Source: Variimorphobacter saccharofermentans (GTDB taxonomy: Bacteria > Bacillota > Clostridia > Lachnospirales > Lachnospiraceae). Taken from it: a stretch of 64,000 nt of DNA. Under the pieces are notes generated by a model, which had not been told where the DNA came from, did not search any database, and worked only from the letters and a program-made list of their open reading frames with translations. Positions 15,878-63,296 of this stretch are shown one piece after another (the first letter of the stretch is position 1; each line of letters starts with the position of its first letter). The translations under genes were made by a program, and so were the position numbers. The DNA is taken from assembly GCF_014174405.1 (NCBI RefSeq), contig NZ_JACEGA010000001.1, positions 2,695,001 through 2,759,000 on the forward strand. Direction: 5' to 3'.

Positions 15878-15878
15878 A

Positions 15879-17555: not shown

Positions 17556-17574
17556 TCGGTATTCTCCTAATCGC

Positions 17575-34997: not shown

Positions 34998-35016
34998 TTC
35001 TCTCGTTACCTCCATT

Positions 35017-41343: not shown

Positions 41344-41384
41344 GGAACACCTCCTATGGTTCTGTGGATAAAGCGGGCTTTCCT

Positions 41385-45743: not shown

Positions 45744-46295
45744 TCTTATTCTCTTCTTAGTTCTTCTGCTTTTGACTCTTCCTGTTGCTCTTGTATATAT
45801 TTCTTTATCGCATCTTCGGTGATATTTCCGACGGTTGACACATAATACCCTCTTGCCCAAAATGACTTATTCCATTTGTTCAGTTTCTCAGGGTACTTAT
45901 CATACACCATTAATGCTGACTTGCCTTTCAGATACCCTACTATTTGTGACACACTATACTTGGGTGGAATACTTATACATAGATGTACATGGTCTTTACA
46001 AACTGCACCTTCTACTATTTCCACTTTCTTATAATCACACAATTTCTTTAAGATCTCTCTTACATCTGCTTTTACCTGACCATATAATACCTTTTGCCTG
46101 TACTTGGGTATGAACACTATATGGTACTGGCATTTCCACCTACAATGTGATAAACTTTTACTGTCCATTGGATGTCTCCTATGTATTTTGATTTTGGCTT
46201 GCGACACCATTATCATTATAACATAGGAGGCTTTTCTATTGTCCTCTGCGCTACTGCTTATTCCATTCTCCCCAGCTTAGCTGGGGGATTAGTGT
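45744..46295 (-). mobile_element. IS200-type insertion sequence, 3' end cut by IS1182
   Basis: The tnpA stop lies two bases from the IS1182 tip, so the usual non-coding 3' end with its hairpin is missing. At the other end, the palindrome CCCCAGC-TTA-GCTGGGG near 46269-46285 is a typical IS200 end structure. Beyond it the NUDIX-DUF429 gene begins. Confidence 0.7.
45746..46168 (-). CDS. tnpA: IS200/IS605 TnpA Y1 transposase
   Basis: About 140 aa from the ATG at 46168, with AGGAGACATCC upstream. The HUH motif is in KDHVHLCISIPP, and the catalytic tyrosine is in WARGYYVSTVG. It moves single-stranded DNA without making target duplications. The protein looks complete, but the element end needed for mobility is lost. 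No TnpB gene is present. Confidence 0.9.
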   Translation of the reverse strand: MDSKSLSHCRWKCQYHIVFIPKYRQKVLYGQVKADVREILKKLCDYKKVEIVEGAVCKDHVHLCISIPPKYSVSQIVGYLKGKSALMVYDKYPEKLNKWNKSFWARGYYVSTVGNITEDAIKKYIQEQQEESKAEELRRE

Positions 46296-47115
46296 TTTCA
46301 TTTAAAAAGGAGTCTAATTCTCTCATTTTTGGCATAATTGCCATTGTTTGTGACACAAGACCTTTTCCGATATTAATTTTATTTTTCTCAATTATTTCTT
46401 GTTCAGACTCAGCATAAACTGCCTGTCTACAGGGTACTGCGAAAATGGTAGGCGTCCTACCCGGAATTAGTTTACGTGCAACTGTATCAGGCCTTATGTG
46501 GTCATTATTACTTGGTAACCCAATTACCATATCAATCAGGAACTCATCGAATTTTTCATATCTACCAACAATCTCATCGACAGACGCAAACTTCTCAACC
46601 CTAAGTTCTCCGCTTGAAATAATAGCCGTAATCCATCCACCTTTGCATCCATCTACTCCAATACATAATGAGTCCATTTTTAACCTTTTGCCTGTATTAT
46701 GATTTTCATTACCTTTCAGTGGATGCTTTAATGCTACATTAACAATATGAGTAATGTTCTGCTCACCAGCAAATCGCCTAGGATTTGCAAAATCATCTGT
46801 TAACGGTAACCATACCAACGGATTGGCTTCTGCAATTAATTCCTTCTCACCGGACAACTTCCCTACATATAGCTCCAAGATAAACTCTTGATGATAATAT
46901 GTAATATCCATCAGTCGATACAAACGGATATCTTCTCTCGAAATACCAGTCTCTTCATATAATTCCCGATATGCAGCAATTGTGCTTTCTTCACCGACAT
47001 CCACTTTACCACCTACAAAATTGTAAAGACCTATGTATGGATCCTTCATTCTTTTGCAAAACAGTATTTTTGATTTATCATCATTAAACACTACAATACA
47101 ATTACATTTCTTCAT
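46258..47115 (-). CDS. NUDIX hydrolase fused to a truncated DUF429 domain
   Basis: About 285 aa from the ATG at 47115. Residues 1-145 form a NUDIX hydrolase with the box GGKVDVGEESTIAAYRELYEETGI, which would hydrolyse nucleoside diphosphates linked to another moiety. From MDSLCIGVDGCKGGW the protein continues as a DUF429 domain (predicted RNase H-like fold: FLIDMVIGLPSNN, RKLIPGRTPTIFAVP). The DUF429 part normally runs longer; here it stops after FLNENTN, and the last 10 residues come from the IS200 end. The NUDIX part is probably active and the DUF429 part broken. What the fusion recognises is unknown. Confidence 0.78.
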   Translation of the reverse strand: MKKCNCIVVFNDDKSKILFCKRMKDPYIGLYNFVGGKVDVGEESTIAAYRELYEETGISREDIRLYRLMDITYYHQEFILELYVGKLSGEKELIAEANPLVWLPLTDDFANPRRFAGEQNITHIVNVALKHPLKGNENHNTGKRLKMDSLCIGVDGCKGGWITAIISSGELRVEKFASVDEIVGRYEKFDEFLIDMVIGLPSNNDHIRPDTVARKLIPGRTPTIFAVPCRQAVYAESEQEIIEKNKINIGKGLVSQTMAIMPKMRELDSFLNENTNPPAKLGRME

Positions 47116-47218
47116 AATTAAATCCATTCCTTCCAAACATCCAGCAGTATCCGATTGCTATCTGCTTTCTCTTCGTACAATTGGAGTTCATTATCATTTT
47201 GGTTACTTTACCCCAAGT

Positions 47219-48424
47219 TCAAATATTTTCCAGCAGTTCAAGAGCTTTTATTGACTCCTGCTCTACCTTACAATTATGCTTTAGCATAAATTCAAAAATC
47301 TCACTATATTTTTGAAGCCTTTCTGATTTCATAGCCTTCCTATCGTTAACTGTCAATTCTTTATAAAGCCCACAATTATAATATCTTTCCAATGTATCAA
47401 TATCCATTTCTAATGGTTGAAAGGGTATTCCTGTTTTATTCTTTAAATTCTCAAGTATTGAAAACCCATAGACATCAAGATCTCCTTTGTGATAGTATTC
47501 CTTTTCTTGGTTCTGTGAGAATAACAATTTCAGAAATTGCTGTTTTGATAAATTATGAAATCCACCGAGATATATGAACATACTATCACCATCTTCGGAA
47601 TCATGGTATGTTGTTAAGTTTTCAACTGTTATAATCTTATCAGCATTGACTTCAATTCTAATAATATCACCAAGTGCTGAATTTGGAATTGCAATTCCAC
47701 CATTCATATCAGACAAATCAATATTTGAATTTTTATATGTTAATGTGGTATTTCCTTTAATCAATACATAGGTTGGATTGTCAAACAGGTTATATACTTC
47801 CAATATTCTTTCTTTTTCAACTACGACATCTGTGTAATCAAACAGAATACTCTCTATGATTGGACGCAACTTCTGGAATTTCTTTGAATCCCTAAATACT
47901 GCCGTTGAAAAATTTCGAATATAAGTCTCCTGATCTAAATTTATTACAGAGCTTAGCGTAAGCAATACTAAGTCTAATTTCCGGTCGTCAAACTTAATAT
48001 CATAAGGGAGCTTCTTATATTCTTCCAATTGCTTTGTGAAATCTTTAATCACCTTGCAAATGATCGCATTATTGTTACTCTGATAACGTTCTAAAACTAT
48101 CTTCATTTTATCGCACAATTCTGGAACACTCATTCTTCCAGCAAAAGCATAAGCGTCTTTTATTGCATCAAGGTTTAATTTTACTTTAGTATATTTCCCA
48201 GAAACATCTTGAATCGTATAAATAATTTTTTGTTGCTCCAATTTTTCTATAGCAACGTTAATATCCCTATAGGCTTCATGATCATAACGGTCAATGTACT
48301 CTTTATATTCTTTTGCTGGTTCTATTTGAATAGCTCTTATTTCATTATTATCTTTAGCAAATGACTCTCTTCTCTCATATATATCCAATAGCTTTTCAAG
48401 AAGCAATTTATAATATTTTTTCAT
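47219..48424 (-). CDS. jetD: Wadjet system nuclease subunit JetD
   Basis: About 401 aa from the ATG at 48424, with GAAGGAGTG upstream. The C-terminal Toprim-like nuclease domain (DUF2220) shows VENLTTYHD (E268), FIYLGGFHNLS and HKGDLDVYGFSIL (D315 and D317). The N-terminal part (KEYKEYIDRYDHEAYRDINVAIEKLEQQ) is a winged-helix arm. In Wadjet, JetD cuts small circular DNA held by the JetABC SMC complex and so blocks plasmids. The gene seems complete and follows jetC by 4 bases. Without JetA, JetB and full JetC it should not work as in intact systems, unless other copies exist. Confidence 0.85.
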   Translation of the reverse strand: MKKYYKLLLEKLLDIYERRESFAKDNNEIRAIQIEPAKEYKEYIDRYDHEAYRDINVAIEKLEQQKIIYTIQDVSGKYTKVKLNLDAIKDAYAFAGRMSVPELCDKMKIVLERYQSNNNAIICKVIKDFTKQLEEYKKLPYDIKFDDRKLDLVLLTLSSVINLDQETYIRNFSTAVFRDSKKFQKLRPIIESILFDYTDVVVEKERILEVYNLFDNPTYVLIKGNTTLTYKNSNIDLSDMNGGIAIPNSALGDIIRIEVNADKIITVENLTTYHDSEDGDSMFIYLGGFHNLSKQQFLKLLFSQNQEKEYYHKGDLDVYGFSILENLKNKTGIPFQPLEMDIDTLERYYNCGLYKELTVNDRKAMKSERLQKYSEIFEFMLKHNCKVEQESIKALELLENI

Positions 48425-48428
48425 ACAA

Positions 48429-51287
48429 TCACACTCCTTCAAAAGCTGCAATAGCATTTCTTGAGCCGTGTTTTACGATAGAATATGTTATATCACAGTA
48501 TGGAAAAATGGACGTACATTTTTCCGGCGTTGCAATCAATACTAACTGTAAGTTTAGATCACAGAACATTTTCATCATTGGTTCTATGCGGTCACTTGTC
48601 ATGTTATTAAATGCTTCATCCAATAAAACCAACCTAATACAATTATCATTTTGCTGATATATCTGTAGCAATGAAGCACAAATTGCAACATAAAATGGTG
48701 CCTGGTTTTCACCACCACTTCCATCTCCACTAACCTTTGATAGTTGAACTTCCAATCCGGTTACAGCATTTTTTACTATAATGTCATAATCCAGATAGGT
48801 ACGATAATCAACATAGGTAGAGATGCTCTTCGCTCCATTTTTTTGTCCTGTAAGTGTCTCTTGAGCATGATTTTCCACATCGACCATAATTCTTTGCATA
48901 AATTCTTCTATCTGGCTCTCAAATATCTTAGACTCATTTGTTGCAAGAAATGCCATAATTTCGTTTTCTTCATCAATCTGCTGATTGTCCTTATCCATGA
49001 TAATATTATAAAAAATACTCATTTCCTTATCTTTGCTACCATCAATAGAAAATCTGTAACTTTCCTCTCCATAAGAAAGATGTTCCATAACTTTATTTAA
49101 GCCGCGGAACTGCTGCCTTGCTCTTAGAATATCATCTTTCATGCGGAATAAAACTTCTTTACGGAATCGTTCTTTACATCGTATTTGAGCTTTTTTTAAT
49201 GCATCTTTGTGCTGTTCAAGTGCGATGTTTATTAGTGATGCATAAGCCTGCTGATACCTAGCATCACCATCTAGTCCTTCAGGATAGTCACAAGCATATG
49301 TGCCTGTATACTTTCTTTGAAGCGGAATCAAATCTGCATTCATGTATTTATTAAATGCGCTCAAATCCTGGTTTATCCTATTTCCAAAGTTATTTACAAT
49401 TGCTGATGCTTTCTTTGTCTTTCGTTCCTCGTTATACTTTTTCTCCACAACATCTATAAACGCAGCATGTGATTTTATGATCAGGTTATATTCTTCCTGA
49501 GCCTCATCAATATTTTGCTGTAATCCACCAATAACTAGCTTCGCATTGTTAATTAGATTTTCTGCATTTAGCTGCTCACCCTTAACATCTGTGATCAACC
49601 CTATTAATTCTGAATGCTTTTTTTCGCATTCTTCTACTCGGTTATACATAGCCATAAGAATCGGATTCTTTTTGAATTCTTCAATCTGTTTCTTAATTTC
49701 TGATATGGATGCATACAATTTATCTGCTTCCTTTTTAGCACCACAATATTCTTCTAATTCAAGAAGTGCATTACCTGATATAAACTGTCTATGCATATTA
49801 TCCAACACAGTATATTGTGTTTTTCTATTTTCTGTCTCCTGCTGTTCCTGTCTTTTATCCTTTAGCAGTGTTTTTGAATTTTCCAATTGTTGCTGTAATG
49901 CATCAATACCTATGTAACGTTCCAGTCTATGCATTCTTTGTAAGCAGTAACTCTGATAACGTAGACGATCTTTTGTAATACTTTTCTTATACAGTTCCAG
50001 ATCCTCTTTTGTTTCACAGCAGACAACACCACCCATAAGATAATCAGCATATGCTCTCGCATATGGATTCTTAGACTCAACAGTAAATGCCAGCATTTTT
50101 TCATTTGATACAGTTATATTATTACGCTTCATTAAACGTACTGTATCTACTAAACCTATTCCCCGAACACTATCCTGTAGAGAAACAAAAACAGTTTTTG
50201 CTATCAGATAATCCTCCGGTGCAATAATAATATTGAAACGCTGATTATTCAGATAACTTTCAACCGCATCCTGCCATTGTAAATCATTCATATATAATAA
50301 TTCACAGAATAATTTTGCATTAGGTTGTCTTCCAAGTTCTATCAATTTATTATTAATAGAATCTCTTACCAATTCAGCCTCTTTTGGATAGCACATAAAT
50401 CCAGCTTCAAGTTTCTTAATTTTTCCGAGTAACTCATCCAGCTCGCCGCGCAACTCTTTCAAACGGTTACGAATAGCTGCATCATTGTCCTTTATTGCTT
50501 CAGCAATATCTGATAGTGCTTCCCTAGATACTTTAATTGCTGTTAATTTTTCTTCTAATGAGGCATCTTCATCTTCTATGATTTCAATATTCCATTTGCA
50601 ATCGATATTTAATAATACCAACTGCTTTCTGAGCTTTTGCATTTGTTCCAATATTTCATCAAACTTGGCGGCATTCCTTATTAGCTTACTATATTCATTA
50701 CTCTTTGACTTCTCTTCTTCCTCTAAATATGAAAGGGCTTTATTCTCCTGATTATCATCAACATCTTTTCTTGCATTGTAAAGCTGCTTATCTGCTTCCT
50801 TTTCTTTCTCATTCAGCTCTTGCAACTTATTCTCGCAGATTTTTATCGTGGATTTTGCTTGTAGGATTCTACTATTTTCTTCTTCCTGCTGTTCTATTGC
50901 ATCTTGTAATTTTGCATAACTAACTAAAGCTTCATTCACTTTCACTTTGGAATCAAGCTCTTTAGCTACTTGCATTTTTTCATTAATATCCGCTAATAGT
51001 TTTTCCCTTTCCTGCGCTTCTTCTAAAATCTCCTGTAATCGTTCCAATTCCTGCATATCTTTATGCAGTATTTCAACATTGATCTCCGGCTCGGGCAAAA
51101 TGTATGTATAAATAAACTTTCTAATATCATTAATATCTTCAAGACTGGTTCCCATATGAAATACTTCATTGAACTTCTTTCCGATCTGTGAGTCTGCATC
51201 CCCTATTCCCAGCACTCGGCAAATTCTTCTTCTGGCTTCAGCCTGCCTTGAACGGTTAAAAAAGATGCCGCTTGTACTTATTACCAC
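48429..51287 (-). pseudogene. jetC: Wadjet SMC-like ATPase JetC, 5'-truncated
   Basis: The 952-aa frame lacks the SMC head N-terminus with Walker A. It begins at a point (RQAEARRRICRVLGIGDADSQIGKKFNEVFHMGTSL) that lies some 250-300 residues into normal JetC proteins. The long coiled coil with its hinge-like middle is present. The C-terminal head also remains, with the signature SGGENQ near 857-862 and Walker B LVLLDEAF near 886-893. Without Walker A it cannot bind ATP correctly. The break is at about 51250-51290, immediately next to the radical SAM gene stop. jetA and jetB should lie upstream but are absent. The GGENQAPFYVAI text looks more like type II than type I Wadjet; this is a guess. 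Confidence 0.82.
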
Positions 51288-51296
51288 CTTGGAGGA

Positions 51297-52346
51297 TTAT
51301 ATTTCCGACATCATCGCAGCATGATATGCACAAAATCTGTTTTCTCCATAAATATCACCCGTGTCCAGTAGCCGCACATTACTGCATCCACCAAGACATC
51401 TTACTGCATATTCACAGCTGCCGCATTTACCCTGAAGCTGCCTGGCCGTCATGTTTCTTCTCCAGGCAAATGAGTTCTCGTCCTCCCATATATCCATCAA
51501 TGAGCGCTCACGGATATTGCCCTCAATGAACTTCGCGTTGCGTATGGAAGTGCAGCCTATCACATCTCCATTGCTCAAAATTCCAAAGCTACGGATTCCG
51601 GCATTGCATCCCTCCCAGAGGGGTGTTGCTTCGGAGTGTGCGGCAATCTTGCGCGCAATAGCCTCCTTATGTGTATAGTACCCTATGGTATCTGGCAGAG
51701 TAATCAAGATCCTTCCTTCTATGTTGGTTTCATATGCAAAATCGATAATTTTCTTGATATCCTGTGGCTGAACTATCATGTCCTTATGCCTTAATAGGTT
51801 TCCTTCGGGCAGACCAGTCTGTAGCTGCCAGTAAGCTACACCCAGTCTGATCAATTCTTCTTTCAATGCAGGAAGCTCATTGATATTGTTCCTCATAACT
51901 GTTGTAATCGCACTCGTGACAAAGCCCGCCTCGCGTGCGAGCCGGAATGCCTCTTCACATTTTTCATAAGTATTTCCCCCACGGATATGATTATGGGTTT
52001 CTCGTAATCCATCGATACTGATGGAGAAGTTTGTAACTCTAGTCCCTTTCATTTTATTTATAATTTTATCGTCAACCAATGTTCCATTTGTAATAATGCA
52101 AATATTCACTCCTACATCAGAAAGTCTCTGAAGAATGATATCCCAATCTTTTCTGAGAAATAGTTCTCCTCCCATCAAGGATACCCACCGCAATCTCATA
52201 GCACCAATCTCTTCCGCTACCCTTAAAGCTTCCGCTGTTGTAATCTCATCCGGCCTTGCTGCCTTGCAGGAAGAGCCGCAATGCGTGCAATGCAGGTTGC
52301 ATTCCATTGTAAGCTCCCATACACATGTCTCTGGTGTATACTTCAT
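51297..52346 (-). CDS. Radical SAM enzyme with SPASM domain
   Basis: The 349-aa protein has the CxxxCxxC site (C16, C20, C23 in ECNLHCTHC), the glycine-rich MGGELFL and SISIDGLRETHNHIRGG segments. A C-terminal cysteine cluster (CGSCEYAVRCLGGC, near 313-326) is typical of SPASM domains that hold auxiliary 4Fe-4S clusters. Such enzymes modify peptides or proteins by radical chemistry. It lies 65 bases after the 439-aa gene in the DUF6603-like operon, in the same direction, so a protein of that operon may be its substrate; this is inference. The ATG has GGAGA upstream. No small precursor peptide gene was seen. Confidence 0.85.
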   Translation of the reverse strand: MKYTPETCVWELTMECNLHCTHCGSSCKAARPDEITTAEALRVAEEIGAMRLRWVSLMGGELFLRKDWDIILQRLSDVGVNICIITNGTLVDDKIINKMKGTRVTNFSISIDGLRETHNHIRGGNTYEKCEEAFRLAREAGFVTSAITTVMRNNINELPALKEELIRLGVAYWQLQTGLPEGNLLRHKDMIVQPQDIKKIIDFAYETNIEGRILITLPDTIGYYTHKEAIARKIAAHSEATPLWEGCNAGIRSFGILSNGDVIGCTSIRNAKFIEGNIRERSLMDIWEDENSFAWRRNMTARQLQGKCGSCEYAVRCLGGCSNVRLLDTGDIYGENRFCAYHAAMMSEI

Positions 52347-52411
52347 CTTGATTCTCCATTTCCGCGCTTATATTTTTGCGCTAATAAAGTTTGTTCCAAG
52401 GATGACGCATG

Positions 52412-53731
52412 CTATGTAACACTGACGGTTCTTTGAACATAATAACCGTAATTATCAAAAGCATATAAGATCACCTCATTTTGAGTTGCATAATCTACAA
52501 ACACTTTACCAGTCAGGCTATAATGCACTTCAGCTCCCTGCAGGCTTGTTGTGATATATGCAGCTCCGGTCACATTCCATTCCATCTCAATTCCATTGAT
52601 TGTTACCACATGTGGCTCCGGAGGATCATCCCCTCCATATACACTTCCTACAATAGGCGTACTAGTCATACGATTGACCATCGTGACCGGAATAAAATCA
52701 TCTTCTTCAAGCCCTGCCATCAGGGTATAACATCTTGAATTTTGTATCACCTGCCTGGAAGAATGCCTTGCAGTAAATGAATTAACCACAGGCATATCAT
52801 AACCTATACACTGATATGTTGTATCGACGACACCCTTCTTCTTTACAAATAAAGTAATATCCGTATGAGGTTGATTCGGATATGGGTATACCAGGCTTCC
52901 CGCTGCATCCAGATTAGTAAACCTATCAATCCACCGGGCATCTGTATTCTTCGTATCCCAGGAGAGAATCAGACCCGTTGTCCCGGCTCTTGCTTTCTCC
53001 AGCTGATATGATAATATGTATTGAAATGTCATCTCATAGGCCTGATCCACAGTATAATCTGCAGGATTCACTACTTCAAGAAGATATTGCCCTCCCACCT
53101 TAGCTTTTGCTTTGATGGAATCTATCGGGTTGACCGCTCTGCCATTCAAGGTAACCTTACACCCGTCACCAAAATCATCTACTTCCCAACGCAGTGTTAT
53201 ATCGTCATCAACATTGTATTCGACCGATGGTCCCAGAAAATATTTGATAACTGGCTGAGCTACTTTAATCAGAGGACACTGATATCTGCTATCATCATCC
53301 AGTCTTCTGATATGAAGGTTAGCCATCCCTCTGAACGGATTGCAATCAATCTGTGATATCGTAATTGCAATACCGGTATTGTTCTTCATCACCATTGTCT
53401 CCGGCGGAAAGAGACACCAATAAATATTATCCCCACTTGCAATCTTGGTAATACTCCACTTACAGTCATCACCCAGACTCATCGTAATTAGGTCAATATC
53501 TTTCGCTGCCACAAGGTCTGATGCATCATCCCCACAATCAAAGTGTAGGTAAAATGCAGAAAGATCCTCCTGCATCTTGGCATTCGCTGGCGGTAGATCC
53601 TCAGCTGTGAGTTTCAAATCATTACGCATTGTTATATCCCTGCCGCTATAGTTGTTCAGATATAGAACCCTCTGATTTCTATAGGAAACCGTCACATTTT
53701 CATTATTAAATTTATAGCTGATACTATCCAT
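52412..53731 (-). CDS. Unknown 439-aa protein of the DUF6603-like operon
   Basis: The start is the ATG at 53731, six bases after GGAGG; an ATG two codons earlier lies inside that site. There is no signal peptide. The sequence is rich in beta-strand patterns, with an Ig-like middle (about 160-230: VIKYFLGPSVEYNVDDDITLRWEVDDFG) and an end resembling a bacterial Ig or FN3 strand pair (VILYAFDNYGYYVQRTVSV). No family is recognised. It is the last large gene before the radical SAM enzyme and follows the hairpin array. It may be a structural or binding subunit. Confidence 0.75.
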   Translation of the reverse strand: MDSISYKFNNENVTVSYRNQRVLYLNNYSGRDITMRNDLKLTAEDLPPANAKMQEDLSAFYLHFDCGDDASDLVAAKDIDLITMSLGDDCKWSITKIASGDNIYWCLFPPETMVMKNNTGIAITISQIDCNPFRGMANLHIRRLDDDSRYQCPLIKVAQPVIKYFLGPSVEYNVDDDITLRWEVDDFGDGCKVTLNGRAVNPIDSIKAKAKVGGQYLLEVVNPADYTVDQAYEMTFQYILSYQLEKARAGTTGLILSWDTKNTDARWIDRFTNLDAAGSLVYPYPNQPHTDITLFVKKKGVVDTTYQCIGYDMPVVNSFTARHSSRQVIQNSRCYTLMAGLEEDDFIPVTMVNRMTSTPIVGSVYGGDDPPEPHVVTINGIEMEWNVTGAAYITTSLQGAEVHYSLTGKVFVDYATQNEVILYAFDNYGYYVQRTVSVT

Positions 53732-53763
53732 AAGCATCCTCCCTCTGCCTCACCGTTCTTATT

Positions 53764-54153
53764 CATTTCACATTAACTGTACATGCTGCCTCTTCGAGGC
53801 AGCTCAAATAGCTGTAAGAACAAGGAGTGAGCACCATAATGTGAATTTATGCATATAAATTCACATTGCGAACATTCGCAGTTCTTACTGTGTGAATTTG
53901 TTTTTAATTCACACTAACGAAGCATGGCTGCTTTTGCCGCAAATGCTTCATCAATACCCGATAATATAATAATGAATTTCCAATGGAATTCATTATTATA
54001 TTATCTAAGAATTCAGCTCGCTGAATTCTTTATTCACACTAACATTACATGCTGCATCTTCGATGCAGCCCAAAACCCGGAAGAATCAAGGAACGAGCAC
54101 CATTGTGCGAGTTTCGCAGGTTCTTCCCGTGTGAATTGCTTTTTAATTCACAC
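53764..54153. repeat. Array of perfect hairpins in three units
   Basis: The whole 390 bp consists of inverted repeats. They are 53785-53803, 53814-53821 with 53881-53888 (enclosing 53838-53867 and 53868-53879), 53890-53914, 53919-53949, 53960-54005 (19-bp arms), 54007-54030 (11-bp arms), 54051-54069, 54079-54085 with 54121-54127, and 54129-54153. The text GTTAGTGTGAAT or near variants recurs at the unit borders on the minus strand, and units 1 and 3 are related copies of about 110-145 bp. The last hairpin overlaps the stop codon of the 1156-aa gene. It may be a composite of small mobile repeats or a structured RNA; the T runs are weak for termination. Confidence 0.85.
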
Positions 54154-57100
54154 TATTCCATTTTACTTTATTATCTGCCTTTAGATATCCCTCCATAATC
54201 CTCTGTTTACTTTCAGGCAGCTTTTGCACCGGAGTCTTGATATCCTTTATCTCAATTAAGCTGTCTTTTGTATCTGTCAAGAAGAAGGACCAAGTCTTAT
54301 CCAGATTACCTGGCAGTGGGATCGAAAACAATTCCGGCTGAACCAGCACAGGCATTGTCCGGAGAAGGTACTGAAAGTTACTCATATGCTTATCATAGAA
54401 CACACTGGGTAATGTCACTTTCTTGGTCGGTAGAAATCCTGTCCGAATGGTGATATCTCCGGAAGGATTCAATAAAAGCGTCAGTTCTTTACCTCCCTCT
54501 GCCAGCGTCATGTCAAAGGCATTCTGCGGAATTATATAGCCGGAGGCGCCTACGGACTCCTGAAGACTGGAGTACATATGTTGATAGCAGTTTTTTGGGG
54601 AAGCTCCTAGATAGAAGCCTACTAATCCATCTTCTACCTTACGGATATCACCCAGTCTTACTTTGAATATCTCCTGATCATACTGATTACAGGGTTGCTG
54701 CGTGTCCCACAGCTGGACATGGGCTCTTTCTTCCTTCTCAAATATATGAATGGATGCCCTGGTAAGTGCCAGTACCTTACCGAAACATAGCTGCAGAAAA
54801 GGATCTTCATTTGAAGGAAGAATAGAATTTAAACTGTGATCCAGGCATACCAGAAAATCATGAAGCGAAGCATCCTTTGTGATAAGACTCTCTACAAATT
54901 CTTTAAGATGCTCCTCTTCAATATCCGTGTAATCGAACCGGGTACCCGGGCTGCTCATCCATCTGCTCCCCTCCTCAGTGGTCTGAAGGAAGCCCAGCAT
55001 ACAGCCCTCAGAATTATATACCTGAAGATTATGATCCAGAAAATTAGGCACAATGTATCCAAAAACCGGTGTTGTCCGGGAATCCACCGCTTCTATGCTT
55101 TCGTCCTGAAAAGAAAGCCATTGAAACCGCATTCCACACGCCTGCATAAAACGCGGTCGTAGCAGAGCACCAGACTTCTCATTGGCCAGCTGCATACTTT
55201 CAGCGATATGGAGTTTATCATCCTTCAACAATATCCTCTTTCGCTGACCAAAGGAATCCACAATCCATATCTGACTAAGCTTCGCCATACCTGCCCGTAC
55301 CGGAAGAAATTTTATGCTGTTACTTCCCACCCTAGGACTAGATACATATTGATTCAGATAGCTATTGATATCTCTTAACAAATCATTATGATTATTATCT
55401 ATTGCGCAGGCCGGTATAAAAGGATACATATCCTGCATCAGTAAAGCTTCATGAAAGCCATCCAACTGTTGTGACAGAATGTCTGAATTCTTAAGACGTT
55501 CCATTACTTTTTGCAGTAAATCGTAATCCTGCTCTTCCTCGCCATAATCAGCAATCAGCTTATTCAGCATATCATACATATTAGTAACGGCATGTGGGAG
55601 AATCAGAGTTGTCCCCTGTAACTTCCAGGACTCTGCTGTCATTTCATAGCTTTCATTCTCAAAATCCATCTCCCCCAGCTTAAATTGTGAGAAAGAATCA
55701 TCCTCAGAGATATTTTTCCTTGCCGGATGAATCTCTAGCTCCCATTCCATCAGCATCGGATTCCAGGGTTGGCTCCAGTCCTTATTGGAAATGTCAAAAG
55801 GGGCTTCCGACTGTAAGGCCAGCTCAGCTTGAGCGGCTTGGAGCTGATTTGCAGCATCAGATAAATCATCCTCCGAGTAAGAGATTCCAAGCTTACTGAG
55901 TGCCAATGCAGCAAGTGGAAGCCTGGCATTCGTATCCAGCAGAATGGCTTCTACTAACAGTCTCTCCTGTGGATTCTTATCCTTCTGGGACAAATCCGAA
56001 TAAAAAAGTGATACATCCTTTCCCTGTATGGTAACGGTGATCGTATCTAGGGTATTCCTTCTACAGGGCAGCTGTTCGGCAGCATTGGTCTGTGTTCCCT
56101 GTTTAAAGCTTCTTCTTACGCCCTCTCCTGCTAAAAGGACAGCCGGAGGATTACTTATGTAACAACGGTAGGCTTCTTCCTTAACCAGTAAAAGATGCGC
56201 TTCCTTTAATCTCTCATTGATGTAACTATCCAAATTAGCTATGGCGGTATTATTCTTATTTATTGTTTCATGATTCATTTTTATCTGACCCAATATCATT
56301 TGAAGCTGATCAATAAATATACCTGAGTCAACCGTTCCAGATCCACGATCACTTAACAATCCCGAAAAATGATATTCTGCATTCTTGAGAACACCCGTTA
56401 CTCCCGGTCCTCTCTTAATGCTAACATATTTCCACCAGTTAAAATATAGCTCTTTTACCAGAGTAGTATTCTTCGCCATAAGTGAATCTACCTCCGATTG
56501 AAGCTCGTTGATATCATTGATCTTTAGCGGTAGCTCGTTATCCATATCTTTACAGCTCTCTTCGGCATCCTTATCCTTACGTACCGTCCAGTGATATCCA
56601 TATAGTTCGGAGGAAAACATCTTCTCATGAATCAGTTCCTCAAAATCGATTAAAGCATCCGGGTTATTCTGGTTATCCAAAATTGATAACAAATTGTATT
56701 GCATTGCATTCAGGATTCGTTCCAGATCGGCTGCATCCGGAATATTATCCCTGATCAAAGCAGAAAGTGCCTCAGCCGAAGTATTACCGATGGCTATATC
56801 GATGTCTTCCTCCGGTATTGAACTAGGATATTGATAATCCTTGCCATACCAGGTAACCCCTTTCACCAAACCATGACAAACAGTACAGTCTGGTAGATTC
56901 TCCATCTCTTTACAGACCCAAGAATACTCTTCCAAGGTATTCTCCACATCTTTATTGAGTGGGTCTTGGTTGCAATCCTCATAATACCCATCTACAAGAT
57001 ATGTAAACACACCTTCCTCATTATCCTCCATGGAATCGTAGAAACCGAATACGCTCTGACATTTTGGATAAAAAGCGGCAAAGGTTGTATCACCGGGTCC

Positions 57101-57613
57101 CACTGCCGTCAGCTGATCCAAATAATATCCGCTCGCTGTTTTCGCTGTTCCTAACTCTCTAACATCACCCTGATATCCATATAGCTGATTATTGTTTCCG
57201 GCACCTACCCATAATCCATCTTCCAGCTTCAGGGTCGGCAGGGAGGTCTTTGACATTCCATAGGGTGTCTCTGCATTATCATTGGTTACAAAATCACTCT
57301 CAATGATCCATGCCTTTCTAAGAATCTGATCCTTTTTATATTGAAGTCGTTGAACAACCCACCGATTTGGAAGGCTTGGGAATTCAATCGTTTCGTTCTG
57401 TACACCGCGCAGGAGGGCATCAGGCATGGTCCAATGCAGATGTATTCCCGGAAGTTCTGTTTTCTCCTGAAAAAATTGATTTACTGTGATATTGGATAAG
57501 GGCATAAATCTTAAATGATTATATTGCGGAACAAGTTCTGCAAAATTATCACTTTTGCTGCTTACCACGAGAGCCTCTAATATTATCGGTACATATAACG
57601 GGTCAGACTTCAT
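54143..57613 (-). CDS. Unknown 1156-aa protein of the DUF6603-like operon
   Basis: The large cytoplasmic-looking protein has no signal peptide. Near the N-terminus are GIHLHWTMPDALLRG (about 56-70) and LPNRWVVQRLQY (about 81-92). I recall these motifs from large unannotated proteins in Actinobacteria and other groups. The middle holds charged coiled-coil segments (about 370-490) and the end is beta-rich. Its ATG overlaps the end of the 293-aa gene by four bases (ATGA type), so the two are co-translated. Codons just before the stop form one arm of a hairpin. Function is unknown; size and layout fit a scaffold or assembly protein. Confidence 0.8.
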   Translation of the reverse strand: MKSDPLYVPIILEALVVSSKSDNFAELVPQYNHLRFMPLSNITVNQFFQEKTELPGIHLHWTMPDALLRGVQNETIEFPSLPNRWVVQRLQYKKDQILRKAWIIESDFVTNDNAETPYGMSKTSLPTLKLEDGLWVGAGNNNQLYGYQGDVRELGTAKTASGYYLDQLTAVGPGDTTFAAFYPKCQSVFGFYDSMEDNEEGVFTYLVDGYYEDCNQDPLNKDVENTLEEYSWVCKEMENLPDCTVCHGLVKGVTWYGKDYQYPSSIPEEDIDIAIGNTSAEALSALIRDNIPDAADLERILNAMQYNLLSILDNQNNPDALIDFEELIHEKMFSSELYGYHWTVRKDKDAEESCKDMDNELPLKINDINELQSEVDSLMAKNTTLVKELYFNWWKYVSIKRGPGVTGVLKNAEYHFSGLLSDRGSGTVDSGIFIDQLQMILGQIKMNHETINKNNTAIANLDSYINERLKEAHLLLVKEEAYRCYISNPPAVLLAGEGVRRSFKQGTQTNAAEQLPCRRNTLDTITVTIQGKDVSLFYSDLSQKDKNPQERLLVEAILLDTNARLPLAALALSKLGISYSEDDLSDAANQLQAAQAELALQSEAPFDISNKDWSQPWNPMLMEWELEIHPARKNISEDDSFSQFKLGEMDFENESYEMTAESWKLQGTTLILPHAVTNMYDMLNKLIADYGEEEQDYDLLQKVMERLKNSDILSQQLDGFHEALLMQDMYPFIPACAIDNNHNDLLRDINSYLNQYVSSPRVGSNSIKFLPVRAGMAKLSQIWIVDSFGQRKRILLKDDKLHIAESMQLANEKSGALLRPRFMQACGMRFQWLSFQDESIEAVDSRTTPVFGYIVPNFLDHNLQVYNSEGCMLGFLQTTEEGSRWMSSPGTRFDYTDIEEEHLKEFVESLITKDASLHDFLVCLDHSLNSILPSNEDPFLQLCFGKVLALTRASIHIFEKEERAHVQLWDTQQPCNQYDQEIFKVRLGDIRKVEDGLVGFYLGASPKNCYQHMYSSLQESVGASGYIIPQNAFDMTLAEGGKELTLLLNPSGDITIRTGFLPTKKVTLPSVFYDKHMSNFQYLLRTMPVLVQPELFSIPLPGNLDKTWSFFLTDTKDSLIEIKDIKTPVQKLPESKQRIMEGYLKADNKVKWNSVN

Positions 57614-58491
57614 ATTCCGTCCCCCTTTCCTCTCTTGATCTGTATTCGGCAGCGGCAGCGTTTATAGATCATCTCGGATGCGAATTCTACCGCCGAGAAA
57701 TATTTTCCTTGGTTATCCCCAAGCTCCTGCAAAATACTGCAGATAAGATTACCAATATCAATTACTCCAAAATCCTTATCCTTATTACGGAATGGTATAG
57801 GAACTGACTGATCCAAGCTCCGTCCTACTTCGCCTTCCTTTAAAGAAACCAGATCCTGCTCTATCTCTCCGCCTTCTTCATTAAAGCCAAAATATAGGCT
57901 CTGATTTGGCTGGGTAAATTCTATCTCCTCCATCTCACCGTCCACAATACATAATAGTATACTATCTGTCAGATGCTCCAGCCTCAATAATTGTAGCTCT
58001 GTACCATTCTGATAACAGCGTACCTCCAGACCGGGCCAGCCTGATGCCAACTGCGAATTCAGCAGAAAGCCAGTTCTGACCTGCTGCGGTTCGCTTTCTG
58101 TCAGAGCTGCATTGCAACGTAGATTTCTGACATTCATTGAATTAGCATATGACACAGTTCGGATCCCCGGCAAAGCCATGTTATCATGCTCGATATCCTG
58201 AGTCGAATGCCGACCGATACTCAGTCCTCCATCAAGCAGACAGGTAACCCAGTTAGGATCAAGATAAAAAATGCGTAAGGATTCCGGTGGAAGCATTGCC
58301 GTATCCGGAACCATATAAGACAAAGGAACTCCCTTAAGCAGTTCCAATTCAGCGAAGTATCGGTTCACCTCATCGTCTTTAGAATAGGCGAAGGATAAAC
58401 TGCTAACTGCCCGCTGAAACCGCGTAGGCTCTCCTAATAATTTGCTATTTACAATATGAAAATCGATTCCCGAGGAAAACCAGGATTCCAT
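57610..58491 (-). CDS. Unknown 293-aa protein of the DUF6603-like operon
   Basis: The protein has the conserved-looking segment GFLLNSQLASGWPGLEVRCYQNG (about 141-163), followed by LLRLEHLTDSILLCIVDGEMEEIEF and SLYFGFNEEGG. Similar SGWPGLEV text occurs in large unannotated actinobacterial proteins, as far as I recall. There is no signal peptide or membrane segment. The end (CRCRIQIKRGKG) is basic. GGAGG lies 8 bases before the ATG. It overlaps the 1156-aa gene and follows the 452-aa gene by about 40 bases. Function is unknown. Confidence 0.78.
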   Translation of the reverse strand: MESWFSSGIDFHIVNSKLLGEPTRFQRAVSSLSFAYSKDDEVNRYFAELELLKGVPLSYMVPDTAMLPPESLRIFYLDPNWVTCLLDGGLSIGRHSTQDIEHDNMALPGIRTVSYANSMNVRNLRCNAALTESEPQQVRTGFLLNSQLASGWPGLEVRCYQNGTELQLLRLEHLTDSILLCIVDGEMEEIEFTQPNQSLYFGFNEEGGEIEQDLVSLKEGEVGRSLDQSVPIPFRNKDKDFGVIDIGNLICSILQELGDNQGKYFSAVEFASEMIYKRCRCRIQIKRGKGDGI

Positions 58492-58532
58492 TCAATTAAC
58501 CTCCAATCCAAATAAAAAAAGATGATATACAA

Positions 58533-59888
58533 CTACCAAAAGAATCGATCTGTATCTTTTTGATTAAAAAAATCCAGAAGAGCATGACCTGCTTTCCTAG
58601 CAACGGTGTTGTGTACTCCTTCTTTACCGAAACTGAGCTTATCCATGTCTTCGCCTCTTGTCTTTAATCTGCTTTCCAATTGCCTGTTCGCACAGATGCC
58701 TGCCAGCATACGAAGATTATTTGTACGACTGCGCATAATTTTAACCGCAATGGCTTTGCTGTTCATGGTAAGCAGTCTTCCTTCCTGCCAGGCAGCAGCA
58801 TAGGATACATCAAACATTCCAATCTCGGGATCGTATTTATACAGACTGTCTGCACTATCAAAGGAATAGCCTGCATTTTCTATGATATTGGGGGTAAATG
58901 GTCCCCGGTAGAAGGATACAGTCTGGCTTCCTTCCCGTAGCTTATGTTGGACAGGAACAAAGCCATGAGAAAGAATTGCATTCGTAGACTCATTCTTTAC
59001 AGTTTTGGAATAGGTCAGGCTGTTGATATCCAGCTTGTCGAACAAATCCTTTATATGCACATCACTGTCTGAGGAATAAAAATCCCAGCTATATAATACA
59101 GTCAGTCGGGCCGTTGCACCTTCAATCACATATTTATCTTCACCAAAGCATTTCACCATTTCAGGGATATTACCGTTCCCAATACATCTCTCATTGTTCT
59201 CATGTACCTCGTGATTGATGTAGCCCTCCAGGGATACAACATAGGCTCTGCTCTTGACATCATTAACCGGAAGTCTGTTTCCAATTAGGACAGAATGCAT
59301 ATCCGTCAATGGATCGTCTCCCACACTTTGCGCTGTGATATTTACCCTTCTGGTGTGACATAAAAATGTCAGCTCACTGGGAGTAGGCATAATCCTAAGA
59401 AAGAGATCTTTATCAAGATCAATGTAGTGACAGATTTCCTTCTTATTAAGTACATCAGTCTCCGGATAAACCTTACTTACCGGATCGGACTTAATCTCCT
59501 CGATTTCATTTCCACATAGCAAAAGCAGTGCCATCCAGGGTGTTTTGAAACGGGGTGGCGTCCCTGCTTCATTAGCAAGCATCGTAACCTGCTTAATTGG
59601 AGTCCGCTCCCAGGGCAGAGTTCTGCGCTGAAAAACAATGTGTGGTAAGGTTGTTCTAAATTTTCCTTTCATTCCCACCGGAGGATACACGGATTCCACA
59701 TCCGCTTCCGCCAGACTAAAACGGGGGCCTTCAATCCTAATGTTCTGAGTCTGGACTGCCTGATAGCCTATTGCATCAATTTTTTGTGTGACCGATATCT
59801 GATATTCACCGCTTTGCATCGGAGGAACACAGGATTCTATATAGTCAATCTGAACTTTTTCCTCCTGACTATTTATTACTGCTTTCAT
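58533..59888 (-). CDS. Unknown 452-aa protein of the DUF6603-like operon
   Basis: The ATG at 59888 is chosen, since GGAGGTGAT lies just before it and the earlier in-frame GTG is inside that site. The start overlaps the end of the 898-aa gene by 20 bases, so translation is coupled. The sequence has beta-strand patterns at the N-terminus (GEYQISVTQKIDAIGYQAVQTQNIRI) and a helical, basic C-terminus (MRSRTNNLRMLAGICANRQLESRLKTRGEDMDK, then KAGHALLDFFNQKDTDRFFW). No family is recognised. It may be a baseplate- or shell-like subunit, but this is only an impression from size and context. Confidence 0.75.
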   Translation of the reverse strand: MKAVINSQEEKVQIDYIESCVPPMQSGEYQISVTQKIDAIGYQAVQTQNIRIEGPRFSLAEADVESVYPPVGMKGKFRTTLPHIVFQRRTLPWERTPIKQVTMLANEAGTPPRFKTPWMALLLLCGNEIEEIKSDPVSKVYPETDVLNKKEICHYIDLDKDLFLRIMPTPSELTFLCHTRRVNITAQSVGDDPLTDMHSVLIGNRLPVNDVKSRAYVVSLEGYINHEVHENNERCIGNGNIPEMVKCFGEDKYVIEGATARLTVLYSWDFYSSDSDVHIKDLFDKLDINSLTYSKTVKNESTNAILSHGFVPVQHKLREGSQTVSFYRGPFTPNIIENAGYSFDSADSLYKYDPEIGMFDVSYAAAWQEGRLLTMNSKAIAVKIMRSRTNNLRMLAGICANRQLESRLKTRGEDMDKLSFGKEGVHNTVARKAGHALLDFFNQKDTDRFFW

Positions 59889-62565
59889 TCTTATCACCTC
59901 CCATAGTTGCCAGCATCGGATGGTAGCAAAACTGGTCCTTTAGTTCCCTTGCCAAATAAGTCATATCATCAACAACCTCCGAGAAACCCATATCCTTAAT
60001 TATGTCACCACGAATTCCTGCAACCAAAGGGTCTGCTATCGTACTGCTGATACTCTCGTAGGAGTTATCCTGAACGTAACTTTTCGCTTCAATCGCTAGC
60101 AACGGAGCCGGTATACATTCTATCAATGTTGTATCAACATCCTGCCGGTATTGTAATGTATAATATGATAACTGCTGTACAGTAATAATCATGCCTGTCA
60201 GTGCACAGATTGTATCCGAATGATCTTTCTTATTATGATCACCCCACAAGGCATAAGGAACCTGCTCCGTTATTTTTTGAAATGTTACCCGGGTATCTTC
60301 CGGAAGATTACTAATTGTTACCTCCTGGGTAGAATCAACTCCAGTCATTTTACATGGGTAGATATTGATTTTATCTCCTTGTGAAAATGTCTCTGCTCCG
60401 TTAAATGTTATTCTTGTCGAGGGCGCCTTACATTTTGTAATAATCTGCATGGTATCGGCACACATAATCCAACCTCGGCTGCCATCAAGCTCATATTCTC
60501 TAATCAAACCTGCACCTGCTAAAACAGCACAGCCTTCATACTCCTCCTGCTCAGCACCGAGCACGGAAGAGAGCTTTTGTTTCGCTTCCTTCTTTGGTAA
60601 GAAGCTTCGTCTAAAGTCTTCCGGCAAAATTGGATTCTGTGACCCCGGCGAACTATTAACAAAGTTAATATCAAAGGAAATACACCACAGCGATACATGC
60701 GCAATACCGGAGAAATCTGGTCCCCAGATATGTAAGCTGCAGCCCAGCTCCAGCCGAACCGTGAATAGCCACAGCTTGACTTTAACACCTATAAATATTC
60801 CTATGTAAAAATCGTAATAAAACGGTTTCCATTGGATATAGATATCAAGCGCTGCATCAAACCATGCTTCTACGCAGGATATGGAAAATACACATTTGAT
60901 ATTTCCACCCGCCATGATACAAGAGGGTGTCAAAGCAAAGTACAAGCCGCCTTCTGCATACAGATTCGAGCAGATTTTCCAGGATAATCCGATTCTTTTA
61001 GTTGTCGGATAGTGAGATGGCTTCACATAGTTTTTATGATAACCTCCCAAGGTGATCACAAAGTCTCCGGCATAATCACCAGCATACCAAACATAGAAAG
61101 CAAAGCCTCCTGTCAGGTGACAATCCTTAGAAAGAACATAAGAATCATCAGATAACATGGCTTCTACGGCAACCAGTCCACATTCCGGCTGAAACGATGC
61201 CTTGAGCAGCAGCTTGATATGGGCGATTACCTGGTTGTCCGATTTTGCGGGAATATCCAGCACGGATTCCCCTAAGACATCAATTTCAACATAATTACCA
61301 AAGGAAACCGTCAGAATTACATCTGACTTCAAAAGCTGAAATGTGGTAAAGGTTATTCCTGCCGCCAGCCAATAGTTTCCTTCCGAGATATAAAAATAGT
61401 TATCCAATTTTGTAATATCATTCAATGTCAAGGTACCGTCAATTAGCTTGAACATCGGAAAATCCTTCAAATGATCAATACTCGGAATAAACAGCCTTCT
61501 GTTGTAACCAAAACCGGCCGCAAAACCGGTCACAAAAAAACAAGGTGGCCCACCAATCGGTACCAGGATAGCTGCTGCAGCAAATACCGAAGTGACCGGT
61601 TTCTGGGCATAGGAACCGATAAGCGTGAAACTGAACGTTCCTAATTTGACCAAAGCCATTCCTGTATAAGCATCCGACGCTTCGGTATAGTAAAATGCTC
61701 CGGCTATTTCTACTGCAGAGGTCTTAACTCCTAGCTCAATTCCAGATATTGTAGGTCTGGTATCCATCAAGTCCTTGAAAGGTATCTTAACTCCTAAGCC
61801 TGCAAACGAGAACCTCAAGGGTCCAAGGCGAAAGCCTGCATTCAGCATAAGAAGAAGCACTCCATCACTCAATGCACCCCCGATTGCATCAAGAGAAACT
61901 GGACCAAAAGTTTTATTGACATCCTTCCATTTTACCTTACTATCTGCCGGACCCTCTTCAAATGCCACAAGTTTTTCATGATTGACAGTAGTTTTAAGCT
62001 TATCCTCATTATCCTTTTGCGGTGATACAATGCTAAATTCAATTGGTTCTTCCAGTTTACGATCGAGTAATTGAATATCCATTATCATCTTCAGCAAGAA
62101 GCCATCTTTTGAACTATAACCAACTGAGACCTTCTTAAACTTAACATCGCCATAAGGCTTAATATAATCTCCTATTAATGGCAGATTCGATAAAGCAAAT
62201 TGATTAAGAATCAGGAATACTCCAAAACCGTTTTCTTTTCCATATTGAAGTTGAGTCCGTCCCAATACATTTTTATTGCCATCATCAAAATCCATAAAGA
62301 CTGTATAAATTCCAGCTTTCCCTTGATATCCAAAGCCAATATCCATAATATTAATATCAGGCAGAAAGCTGACATCCAAATCCGCAATTTCAAAGCATTT
62401 TCCGCTTTCAGCCATAAGCTCATGTAATCCCTGAATTTGTCCGTTATTTATATATTCTCCCAGAAAAACAATTCCTTTGTCCTGCGAATATACTCCTGCT
62501 GCTTCGAATTGGAGCGAACCTAGACGAAAAATAACTGTAGCACCAACATGTAGATTCTTATCCAT
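59869..62565 (-). CDS. DUF6603-like large protein
   Basis: The 898-aa protein resembles DUF6603. It has long beta-strand-rich segments such as LNAGFRLGPLRFSFAGLGVKIPF (about 241-263) and the striking GGPPCFFVTGFAAGFGYNRRLFIP (338-361). A second half follows with alternating hydrophobic strands (LWLFTVRLELGCSLHIWGPDFSG). It has no signal peptide. The alternating pattern is like beta-barrel or lipid-binding repeat proteins, yet a Gram-positive cell has no outer membrane. AGGAGAGGT precedes the ATG, and a hairpin lies in the gap after the 182-aa gene. The family has no known function. The name is from memory of the motif, so moderately sure. Confidence 0.72.
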   Translation of the reverse strand: MDKNLHVGATVIFRLGSLQFEAAGVYSQDKGIVFLGEYINNGQIQGLHELMAESGKCFEIADLDVSFLPDINIMDIGFGYQGKAGIYTVFMDFDDGNKNVLGRTQLQYGKENGFGVFLILNQFALSNLPLIGDYIKPYGDVKFKKVSVGYSSKDGFLLKMIMDIQLLDRKLEEPIEFSIVSPQKDNEDKLKTTVNHEKLVAFEEGPADSKVKWKDVNKTFGPVSLDAIGGALSDGVLLLMLNAGFRLGPLRFSFAGLGVKIPFKDLMDTRPTISGIELGVKTSAVEIAGAFYYTEASDAYTGMALVKLGTFSFTLIGSYAQKPVTSVFAAAAILVPIGGPPCFFVTGFAAGFGYNRRLFIPSIDHLKDFPMFKLIDGTLTLNDITKLDNYFYISEGNYWLAAGITFTTFQLLKSDVILTVSFGNYVEIDVLGESVLDIPAKSDNQVIAHIKLLLKASFQPECGLVAVEAMLSDDSYVLSKDCHLTGGFAFYVWYAGDYAGDFVITLGGYHKNYVKPSHYPTTKRIGLSWKICSNLYAEGGLYFALTPSCIMAGGNIKCVFSISCVEAWFDAALDIYIQWKPFYYDFYIGIFIGVKVKLWLFTVRLELGCSLHIWGPDFSGIAHVSLWCISFDINFVNSSPGSQNPILPEDFRRSFLPKKEAKQKLSSVLGAEQEEYEGCAVLAGAGLIREYELDGSRGWIMCADTMQIITKCKAPSTRITFNGAETFSQGDKINIYPCKMTGVDSTQEVTISNLPEDTRVTFQKITEQVPYALWGDHNKKDHSDTICALTGMIITVQQLSYYTLQYRQDVDTTLIECIPAPLLAIEAKSYVQDNSYESISSTIADPLVAGIRGDIIKDMGFSEVVDDMTYLARELKDQFCYHPMLATMGGDKNESSNK

Positions 62566-62590
62566 ACCTCTCCTAATCCCTTAAAAATAT

Positions 62591-62622
62591 GAGAGGAATT
62601 CTGGTTTTACAAAATCCCTCTC
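62591..62622 (-). promoter_or_regulatory. Intergenic hairpin between the first two operon genes
   Basis: GAGAGGAATT at 62591-62600 pairs with AATCCCTCTC at 62613-62622 with one mismatch. There is no T run. It could be an RNA processing site or weak attenuator making the first protein more abundant than the rest. Confidence 0.45.
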
Positions 62623-62637
62623 ACACATAAGTCATAA

Positions 62638-63186
62638 TTAAGCCGCTAATAATTTCTGGATATCACCCATCGTCATCTTGGATAATATATTAGCCCTCTC
62701 AGTATTCCATATATTAACAAATACAGAGTCTAAGGAGATGAATTGGAAGCCCAAATCAGCGTCATCTTTATTAATCGAGATACTAAAGGCATATTCTACA
62801 GTTGTCAGCGGAGAATCTCCTAAGTCCTTCGTAATATATAGGAAAATCTCATTCAATTTTACACGGTAGTTGCTAAGAAATGTAGGATCCTTCTTGTCAG
62901 CACTCATATAGTCCTTCATCTGATCAGTAACATCACTAGTCTTAACCGGATTGTCCGTACCACCGGACCACTGTTTCAGCTGATCATTGATACCATCACA
63001 TATTTCCTGGATAGTGAAGGATTTGTCTTCCTGACCAGGTGTCGGTAACAATATAAATTGTATCTGTTTAGCTGTCTTTTCAAACACCGCTGTAAAAGAT
63101 GTTCCAAGTAAAGTAAATGTTATACCTGCATTAATATTAACCGGTTTTACAATTGTTGAATTCCCCGTCACTAAATCATTGCCCAT
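62638..63186 (-). CDS. Unknown 182-aa protein, first gene of the DUF6603-like operon
   Basis: The ATG at 63186 has AAGGAGA six bases upstream. The protein contains VNINAGITFTLLGTSFTAVFEKTAKQIQF at the N-terminus, then a helical middle, then TTVEYAFSISINKDDADLGFQFISLDSVFVNIWN, two beta-rich parts that resemble each other loosely. No signal peptide. No family is recognised. The first position in the operon and the hairpin behind it fit a protein made in excess, such as a tube or shell monomer, but that is inference. Confidence 0.75.
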   Translation of the reverse strand: MGNDLVTGNSTIVKPVNINAGITFTLLGTSFTAVFEKTAKQIQFILLPTPGQEDKSFTIQEICDGINDQLKQWSGGTDNPVKTSDVTDQMKDYMSADKKDPTFLSNYRVKLNEIFLYITKDLGDSPLTTVEYAFSISINKDDADLGFQFISLDSVFVNIWNTERANILSKMTMGDIQKLLAA

Positions 63187-63267
63187 AGATATTCTCCTTA
63201 TCAAATTGTTTAATAGTTGTAAATATTACCATTAATGTCATTTTTTTATCTATTTTTTACATTTTAT

Positions 63268-63296
63268 AATATATCATCTCGTATTTCTATTGTCAA
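63268..63296 (-). promoter_or_regulatory. Promoter of the DUF6603-like operon
   Basis: On the minus strand, TTGACA (63296-63291), a 17-base spacer and TATATT (63273-63268) form a near-consensus sigma-A promoter. The predicted start site is near 63261, giving an untranslated leader of about 75 bases before the 182-aa gene. Confidence 0.75.

Follow-up and report, generated by a model that had tools for sequence, protein, structure and literature searches.

The window analysed here (the whole stretch of 64,000 nucleotides from Variimorphobacter saccharofermentans, contig NZ_JACEGA010000001.1) carries on its minus strand, at 51297-63204, an operon of seven genes, and our comparative analyses identify this operon as the local copy of a sporadic cassette that is found across many phyla and falls into two classes. 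Its constant part consists of three families of large proteins, named A, DE and B, which are joined by a member of a modular family, C, and, in other loci, by one exchangeable enzyme gene directly 5' of A. Based on the domains found in its relatives, we tentatively propose that the cassette encodes a fibre-guided protein-delivery particle of a new kind, with A, DE and B as the putative body, C as the fibre and the enzyme as the payload, a reading that we hold with slightly less confidence than doubt.

A core of three large proteins recurs across phyla

In the window the seven open reading frames (ORFs) follow one another in the order F, A, E, D, B, C and radical SAM/SPASM. F (62638..63204, minus strand, as are all the others) is a small first gene of 182 residues if read from an ATG that is preceded by AAGGAG, or 188 residues from a TTG. 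A (59869..62565, 898 residues), a putative body protein, carries the domain that marks the cassette, a DUF6603 match (PF20248) with an E value of 1e-133 and 447 bits against a Pfam gathering score of 27. E (58533..59897, 454 residues from a GTG) and D (57610..58491, 293 residues) correspond to the N-terminal and C-terminal halves of a protein that is fused elsewhere, and B (54143..57613, 1156 residues), another conserved body candidate, bears GIHLHW and LPNRW motifs and a possible coiled-coil stretch. C (52412..53737, 441 residues) begins with a domain that it shares with its relatives and continues with stretches resembling immunoglobulin (Ig)-like domains by eye, and the last gene (51297..52346, 349 residues) encodes a radical SAM/SPASM enzyme (Radical_SAM 4e-25, SPASM 5e-10), an optional partner of C. 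Searches of Pfam with F, E, D, B and C gave no matches at E <= 0.1. A preliminary description of this operon, made from the sequence alone, had given its strand, its gene sizes, the DUF6603 protein and the terminal radical SAM/SPASM gene essentially as we find them; it overstated the coupling of the genes in reporting start-stop overlaps for most of them, as only two of the six junctions are overlaps (29 nt for A/E, given a start of E at the GTG, and 4 nt for D/B) and the others are gaps of 72 nt (F-A), 41 nt (E-D), 405 nt (B-C) and 65 nt (C-radical SAM).

The recurrence of the set was assessed in 80 loci, the best 80 of 380 confirmed DUF6603 stretches from a scan of one genome per species, in all of which A is present by selection. 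Six-frame profile searches found DE in 74 of these loci, B in 69 and C in 48; A, DE and B were all present in 66/80, and A and B shared a strand in 69/69. Among the 14 incomplete loci, ten are shorter than 15 kb, and one of 18.9 kb (L010) has neither DE nor B. The preliminary description had proposed that the genes form a common system, had named a failure to co-occur in other genomes as the finding that would speak against it and had suggested searching for the set both in company of the radical SAM gene and in its absence: A, DE and B do recur together, and widely, and the radical SAM gene accompanies them in 4/80 loci. Gene order and fusion were counted with a cruder ORF picker that assigned wrong strands in some loci; by this count, of 65 loci, 40 have A before B and 25 the reverse, and the DE protein is fused in 45/80 loci and split in 20/80, the fused form occurring in many phyla. 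A profile built from eight split E proteins matched the N-terminal part of 8/8 fused DE proteins and a profile of eight split D proteins the C-terminal part of 8/8, from which it follows that E and D are the two halves of DE. The set of six proteins envisaged at first is recurrent, but those of 452 and 293 residues correspond to a single protein elsewhere.

The 80 loci come from Firmicutes, Treponema, Bacteroidota, cyanobacteria, Chloroflexi, Actinobacteria, Proteobacteria, Acidobacteria, KSB1, Fibrobacter and others. Matches to window A also occur in 11 plasmid records, including one from archaea, and on a haloarchaeal plasmid DUF6603 adjoins a DE-type protein. Within this breadth presence is sporadic: DUF6603 was found in one of 34 genomes of the same genus, namely that of the window, and in 2/61 genomes of a search among relatives.

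The Bacteroidota illustrate both the linkage and the division into two classes. Among 296 genomes, 13 had a DUF6603 match, above the cut-off in 12, and B occurred in seven genomes, all of them among these 12 and each time within ~12 kb of DUF6603. Leaving out the centre genome (G071), which had been picked for having the cassette, as in the other Fisher test on this phylum, B was found in 6/11 genomes with DUF6603 vs 0/284 without it (p 5e-10). These class I stretches include DE in 6/7 cases by the ORF picker, which showed none in L121. A query protein encoded beside a divergent DUF6603 gene (A') of Chitinophaga was found in the other five genomes, always adjoining DUF6603, and the five class II loci share the order A'-DE'-B' followed by a protein of 594-644 residues. 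Profile comparison relates A' to A (98.6%). DE' matched DE in 4/5 class II loci (E 4e-4 to 5e-6), with no match in L113, and two copies scored 52% and 9% in profile-profile comparison; on these similarities DE' is distantly related to DE. Between B' and B no similarity was detectable, and they are paired by position. All 12 Bacteroidota genomes above the cut-off (12/12) fall into the two collinear classes.

A looks beta-rich by eye, and its N-terminal part varies in length among loci; a search for internal repeats in long N-termini, made in two groups, gave a moderate pair in one, and the A profile matched no sequence of a solved structure. The B profile found, weakly, only designed, coiled-coil and helical chains, the designed and coiled-coil ones at positions ~353-480. 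F has homologs, among the ORFs searched, in L010, L042 and L080 only, directly 5' of A in the first two; the possibility that it is a detached N-terminal piece of A was rejected, as no similarity was found and the hint is one of position. The longest A-type proteins, of ~3600-3700 residues, occur in a gammaproteobacterium, in Hahellaceae and in Hydrogenophaga (L068, L076 and L081), and the N-terminal part of the one in L068 contains a lipase-like AHSHTG stretch by eye. A plasmid of Paenibacillus sonchi (L111) has a B match at 15094-17898, no DUF6603 match, and transposase and group II intron genes within 12 kb; it is perhaps a decayed cassette.

The C family, the enzyme slot and the radical SAM gene

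The C family is modular and, judged by its domains, fibre-like. In 46 hand-listed C-type proteins scanned at E <= 0.001, we found Laminin_G_3 in 13, Peptidase_S74 (chaperone of endosialidase) in five, a lactonase-type propeller in three, a phage collar in two and Gp10_C in one, some of these matches, such as the collar of L036, lying below the curated cut-offs of Pfam. Laminin-G stands near the N-terminus in four of five proteins carrying it, and collar, S74 and propellers sit in the second half. Residues 712-880 of the C protein of L036 match phage tail fibres (best ~31% identity, E 2e-9), with 136 phage records matching this protein, and three solved structures, each with three chains, match the C-terminus of that of L020; two of these entries are named tail fibre and the third "C24 protein." One class II protein in the C position had no match among solved structures. 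Profile comparison of 12 Firmicutes-type C proteins, that of the window included, with 13 fibre-type C proteins revealed one domain in common (97.9%, E 3e-13), which in window C aligns over residues 11-235, confidently to ~160, and is followed by repeats that look Ig-like by eye. Passages of a catalogue of contractile-particle fibres report the same kinds of module, namely S74, lactonase, collar, laminin and Ig-like (PMC12923769).

Many loci have one gene directly 5' of A, a position that we call the slot. Thirty-seven slot proteins, hand-picked among the genes 5' of A, form 14 sequence groups. Nineteen of them belong to one metallo-beta-lactamase group, in which 14/19 contain the metal-binding motif; the others include one subtilase, one class 3 lipase and two members of the endo/exonuclease-phosphatase family, and several had no Pfam match. 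The slot of class II held a subtilase in 2/3 loci tested, one class II slot protein matching solved subtilisins; two slot proteins gave no match among solved structures. In Chitinophaga a PhoD-like protein stands 5' of A'. Another family of proteins is found repeatedly, in 11 loci; its three members examined gave nothing but weak Hint matches that do not reach the curated cut-offs.

The radical SAM gene is optional and lies outside the core. A single-pass search found relatives of it in 4/80 loci; an iterated profile, which counted 57 ORFs, was rejected for having drifted, we think because of the fusion described here. In three of the loci (L009, L011 and L015) the gene stands directly 3' of C, and in the fourth (L012), from a Dorea lineage, C and the enzyme form one protein of 784 residues. 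Two clusters of fused proteins, one 98% identical with 16 member sequences and one 62% identical with 14, make it unlikely that this fusion is an assembly accident. Such adjacency and fusion point to C as the most likely partner of the enzyme, which has a CxxxCxxC motif besides its SPASM domain. The last domain of C is preceded by an SCKGGG motif in L011, L015, L012 and the second fusion, and by Gly/Pro-rich stretches in its place in the window and L009, so that this hinge is a candidate site of modification. The suggestion in the preliminary description that the radical SAM enzyme belongs to the set and acts on one subunit can accordingly be narrowed: the gene recurs beside C, to which its product may be directed, but it is optional, and modification of C is what we infer from gene arrangement.

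The enzyme recalls those of ribosomally synthesized and post-translationally modified peptide (RiPP) systems in having both radical SAM and SPASM domains, and peptide maturases are the two top-scoring NCBIfam models for it, with the limit that the 25 best of 80 models all stay below their cut-off (top score 209.7 bits vs 591.75). It may differ from RiPP systems in that none of the ORFs of 20 or more residues in the B-C gap, the region covered by this search, is convincing as a precursor peptide, and in that C, a large protein, seems to be its partner. The enzyme may act on a large fibre protein rather than on a small peptide. It also matches the viperin models of PADLOC (best E 1e-16), as expected from a shared superfamily.

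A putative delivery particle and its alternatives

The delivery reading follows from three features taken together: the body proteins travel together, C resembles fibres and the slot enzymes resemble payloads. In the mechanism that we propose, A, DE and B would form a large body made in the cytoplasm, which C would join through its common domain, its distal part serving as an exchangeable receptor-binding fibre. The slot enzyme (metallo-beta-lactamase fold, subtilase, endo/exonuclease-phosphatase, lipase or others) would be the payload in many other loci, whereas in the sub-lineage of the window the slot is empty and the radical SAM/SPASM enzyme would modify C, perhaps at the Gly/Pro-rich hinge. 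Once released, by lysis or some other route, the particle would bind its target through C. In all seven window proteins the Kyte-Doolittle mean of 19-residue windows over the first 35 residues does not exceed 1.13, so that no signal peptide is apparent, as had been stated for six of them at the outset.

Several observations weigh against this proposal. The window cassette has no slot enzyme, and window C has no Pfam match, its fibre role being argued through homology via one domain. Pfam recognised no sheath, tube, spike or baseplate gene in the window cassette, and window A and B were unmatched in 50,697 phage records, which also tells against a phage tail or prophage remnant. No immunity, export, lysis or puncturing gene was noticed, in the course of work that included no systematic search for such genes. 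A is hydrophobic in one stretch, at residue 327 (mean of 1.99 over 19 residues), 18/86 A-type ORFs exceed 1.9 on the same measure and the N-terminal part of 7/69 B-type ORFs includes a window above 1.6, which makes membrane contact or export possible. Finally, the association of tube genes with the cassette in Bacteroidota (5/11 vs 70/284) is not significant (p 0.15).

Among known delivery systems, Tc toxin complexes and Rhs cocoons likewise combine large proteins with an exchangeable toxic enzyme, a likeness by analogy; they differ from the cassette in that Pfam searches with the window proteins A to E gave no RHS/YD repeat and no TcA or TcB family. Extracellular contractile injection systems (eCIS; Afp, PVC, MAC and AlgoCIS) are similar in their exchangeable fibre modules, with S74, collar, propeller and Ig-like domains in the catalogue cited above (PMC12923769), in their exchangeable enzymes and broad sporadic distribution, and as neighbours of the cassette in a few genomes. 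They differ in that the window cassette is without tube, sheath, spike, baseplate and AAA genes, and the core families listed for eCIS in one source do not include DUF6603 (PMC8213781). The further claim that the cassette represents a separate kind of particle, neither contractile nor of Tc type, with a three-protein body, an exchangeable fibre and enzyme and, in some lineages, tuning by a radical SAM enzyme, appears to us rather doubtful. The novelty of the cassette is provisional, since it was set apart from known systems by comparing sequences and profiles. Our search of the open literature, which did not extend to subscription papers, found no paper naming DUF6603 or PF20248, in keeping with the initial impression that no such system had been described. 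If a delivery particle were confirmed, it would provide a new chassis whose modules are naturally exchanged at the targeting end and the cargo end alike.

The main rival explanation is an intracellular defence or conflict system, in which C (or B or DE) would sense an invader, the large proteins would act as a scaffold and the slot enzyme would kill either the phage or the cell itself; a sensor or effector would be the substrate of the radical SAM enzyme. We regard it as unlikely, although much of what has been described here would suit it: exchangeable hydrolases adjoin large, scaffold-like genes, the window proteins are without apparent signal peptides, no immunity gene was noticed (none having been searched for), only 1/34 genomes of the genus carries the cassette and, in the window, the cassette abuts a remnant of a Wadjet defence system. 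NTP-dependent conflict systems and defence islands show a comparable sporadic presence and comparable exchangeable hydrolases beside large genes; for the former, protease effectors and a radical SAM effector that probably modifies a peptide are described in passages of one account (PMC7159879). The window cassette differs from them in that no NTPase or vWA family was found in it. At E <= 0.1, PADLOC offers no model for any of the six other proteins (F, A, E, D, B and C), its only matches being those of the radical SAM enzyme to viperin through their superfamily, and the tail-fibre tips, collar and endosialidase-chaperone modules of the C family fit extracellular receptor binding better than intracellular sensing. 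Were the defence explanation true, the cassette would be a new defence family with unusual sensors; on either account three large protein families gain a testable role.

It is improbable, to our mind, that the cassette is an accessory module of eCIS, such as a cargo shell or an extra set of fibres, often encoded apart from the particle. This idea draws on positional links in a few genomes. In 29 genomes searched, from 30 of the 80 loci chosen by hand, the T4_gp19 tube gene was present in 15 and absent from 14, and it lay within 20 kb of DUF6603 in 3/29, namely two sister Chitinophaga and Tateyamaria pelophila. In the Chitinophaga loci, genes for the PhoD-like protein, A', DE' and B' are co-directional with tube, VgrG-like, baseplate J and S74-fibre genes, the domains having been annotated in one of the two sister genomes; in Tateyamaria pelophila the tube gene is ~16 kb from DUF6603 on the opposite strand, and on a Paenibacillus plasmid VgrG-like genes lie ~9-13 kb from A. 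Against it stand the 14/29 genomes without a tube gene, the rarity of close linkage, the non-significant association in Bacteroidota and the tube genes of G122, G300 and G306, which are 1.5 Mb off or on another contig, although draft contigs may conceal some links. Among the 62 neighbours scanned of the 301 listed around the relatives, no tube, sheath, spike or baseplate family appeared in the 25 of 51 families listed. We accordingly rejected membership of the cassette in eCIS, the positional links being few and not significant overall, and treat the contractile connection as a lead.

Equally improbable is a structural surface, sheath or biofilm assembly with C as an adhesin accompanied by hydrolases and no delivery to other cells, since, for all its large proteins, its laminin-G, Ig-like and propeller modules, which are frequent in adhesins, and two S-layer-homology proteins elsewhere in the window, the seven proteins have no apparent signal peptide, S-layer or anchoring domain, and the exchangeable hydrolases would have no obvious structural role.

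The cassette in its genomic surroundings

A promoter-like site, TTGACA-17-TATATT, lies 5' of F on the minus strand (63268..63296) and agrees with the consensus, the sole basis for its assignment, at 11/12 positions. The near-consensus promoter reported earlier is therefore present, but our scan found 41 promoter-like sites in total against 35.0 +/- 6.2 in shuffles, close to random expectation, so that the weight of this site comes from its position. The intergenic region between B and C is for the most part (53765..54142, minus strand, of the 405-nt gap) strongly structured as an array of hairpins, with a folding energy of -141.7 kcal/mol vs -90.3 +/- 5.3 kcal/mol in shuffles (z -9.76), none of 100 shuffles being as low. 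It has no Rfam match at gathering scores, and a search of the genome found no second copy, which ruled out a repeated genomic element.

Directly downstream of the cassette are a jetC-type gene (48429-51287, 955 residues) and jetD (47219-48457), parts of a Wadjet (JetABCD) system that adjoins the cassette and does not belong to it. The best match to a jetC profile begins at residue 13 of the ORF and position 163 of the profile, which indicates that about the first 160 residues are missing; other JetC frames in the genus have 1079-1136 residues, two shorter pieces from a single draft genome excepted. The genome of the window also has a second jetC copy, a frame of 1104 residues at 1.046-1.049 Mb (locus ~1.045-1.049 Mb), which adjoins the only match in the genome to PF13835, presumably the JetB family, so that no jetB lies near the jetC of the window. 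No jetA was recognised in the upstream ORF lists, which were inspected without a profile search for it. With a truncated jetC next to it and no jetB nearby, the cassette occupies the place expected of the 5' part of a Wadjet locus. The cassette has a GC content of 0.42, against 0.336 for jetCD.

Beyond jetD, the window encodes at 46258-47136 one protein that combines a NUDIX domain with DUF429 and adjoins an IS200-type transposase (45746-46216). Two proteins of ~2000 residues at 21855-27743 and 28896-35015 have S-layer homology domains and choline-binding repeats. At 40519-43223 a TraG-like P-loop ATPase adjoins a C39-type peptidase, and the two may be part of a conjugative element.

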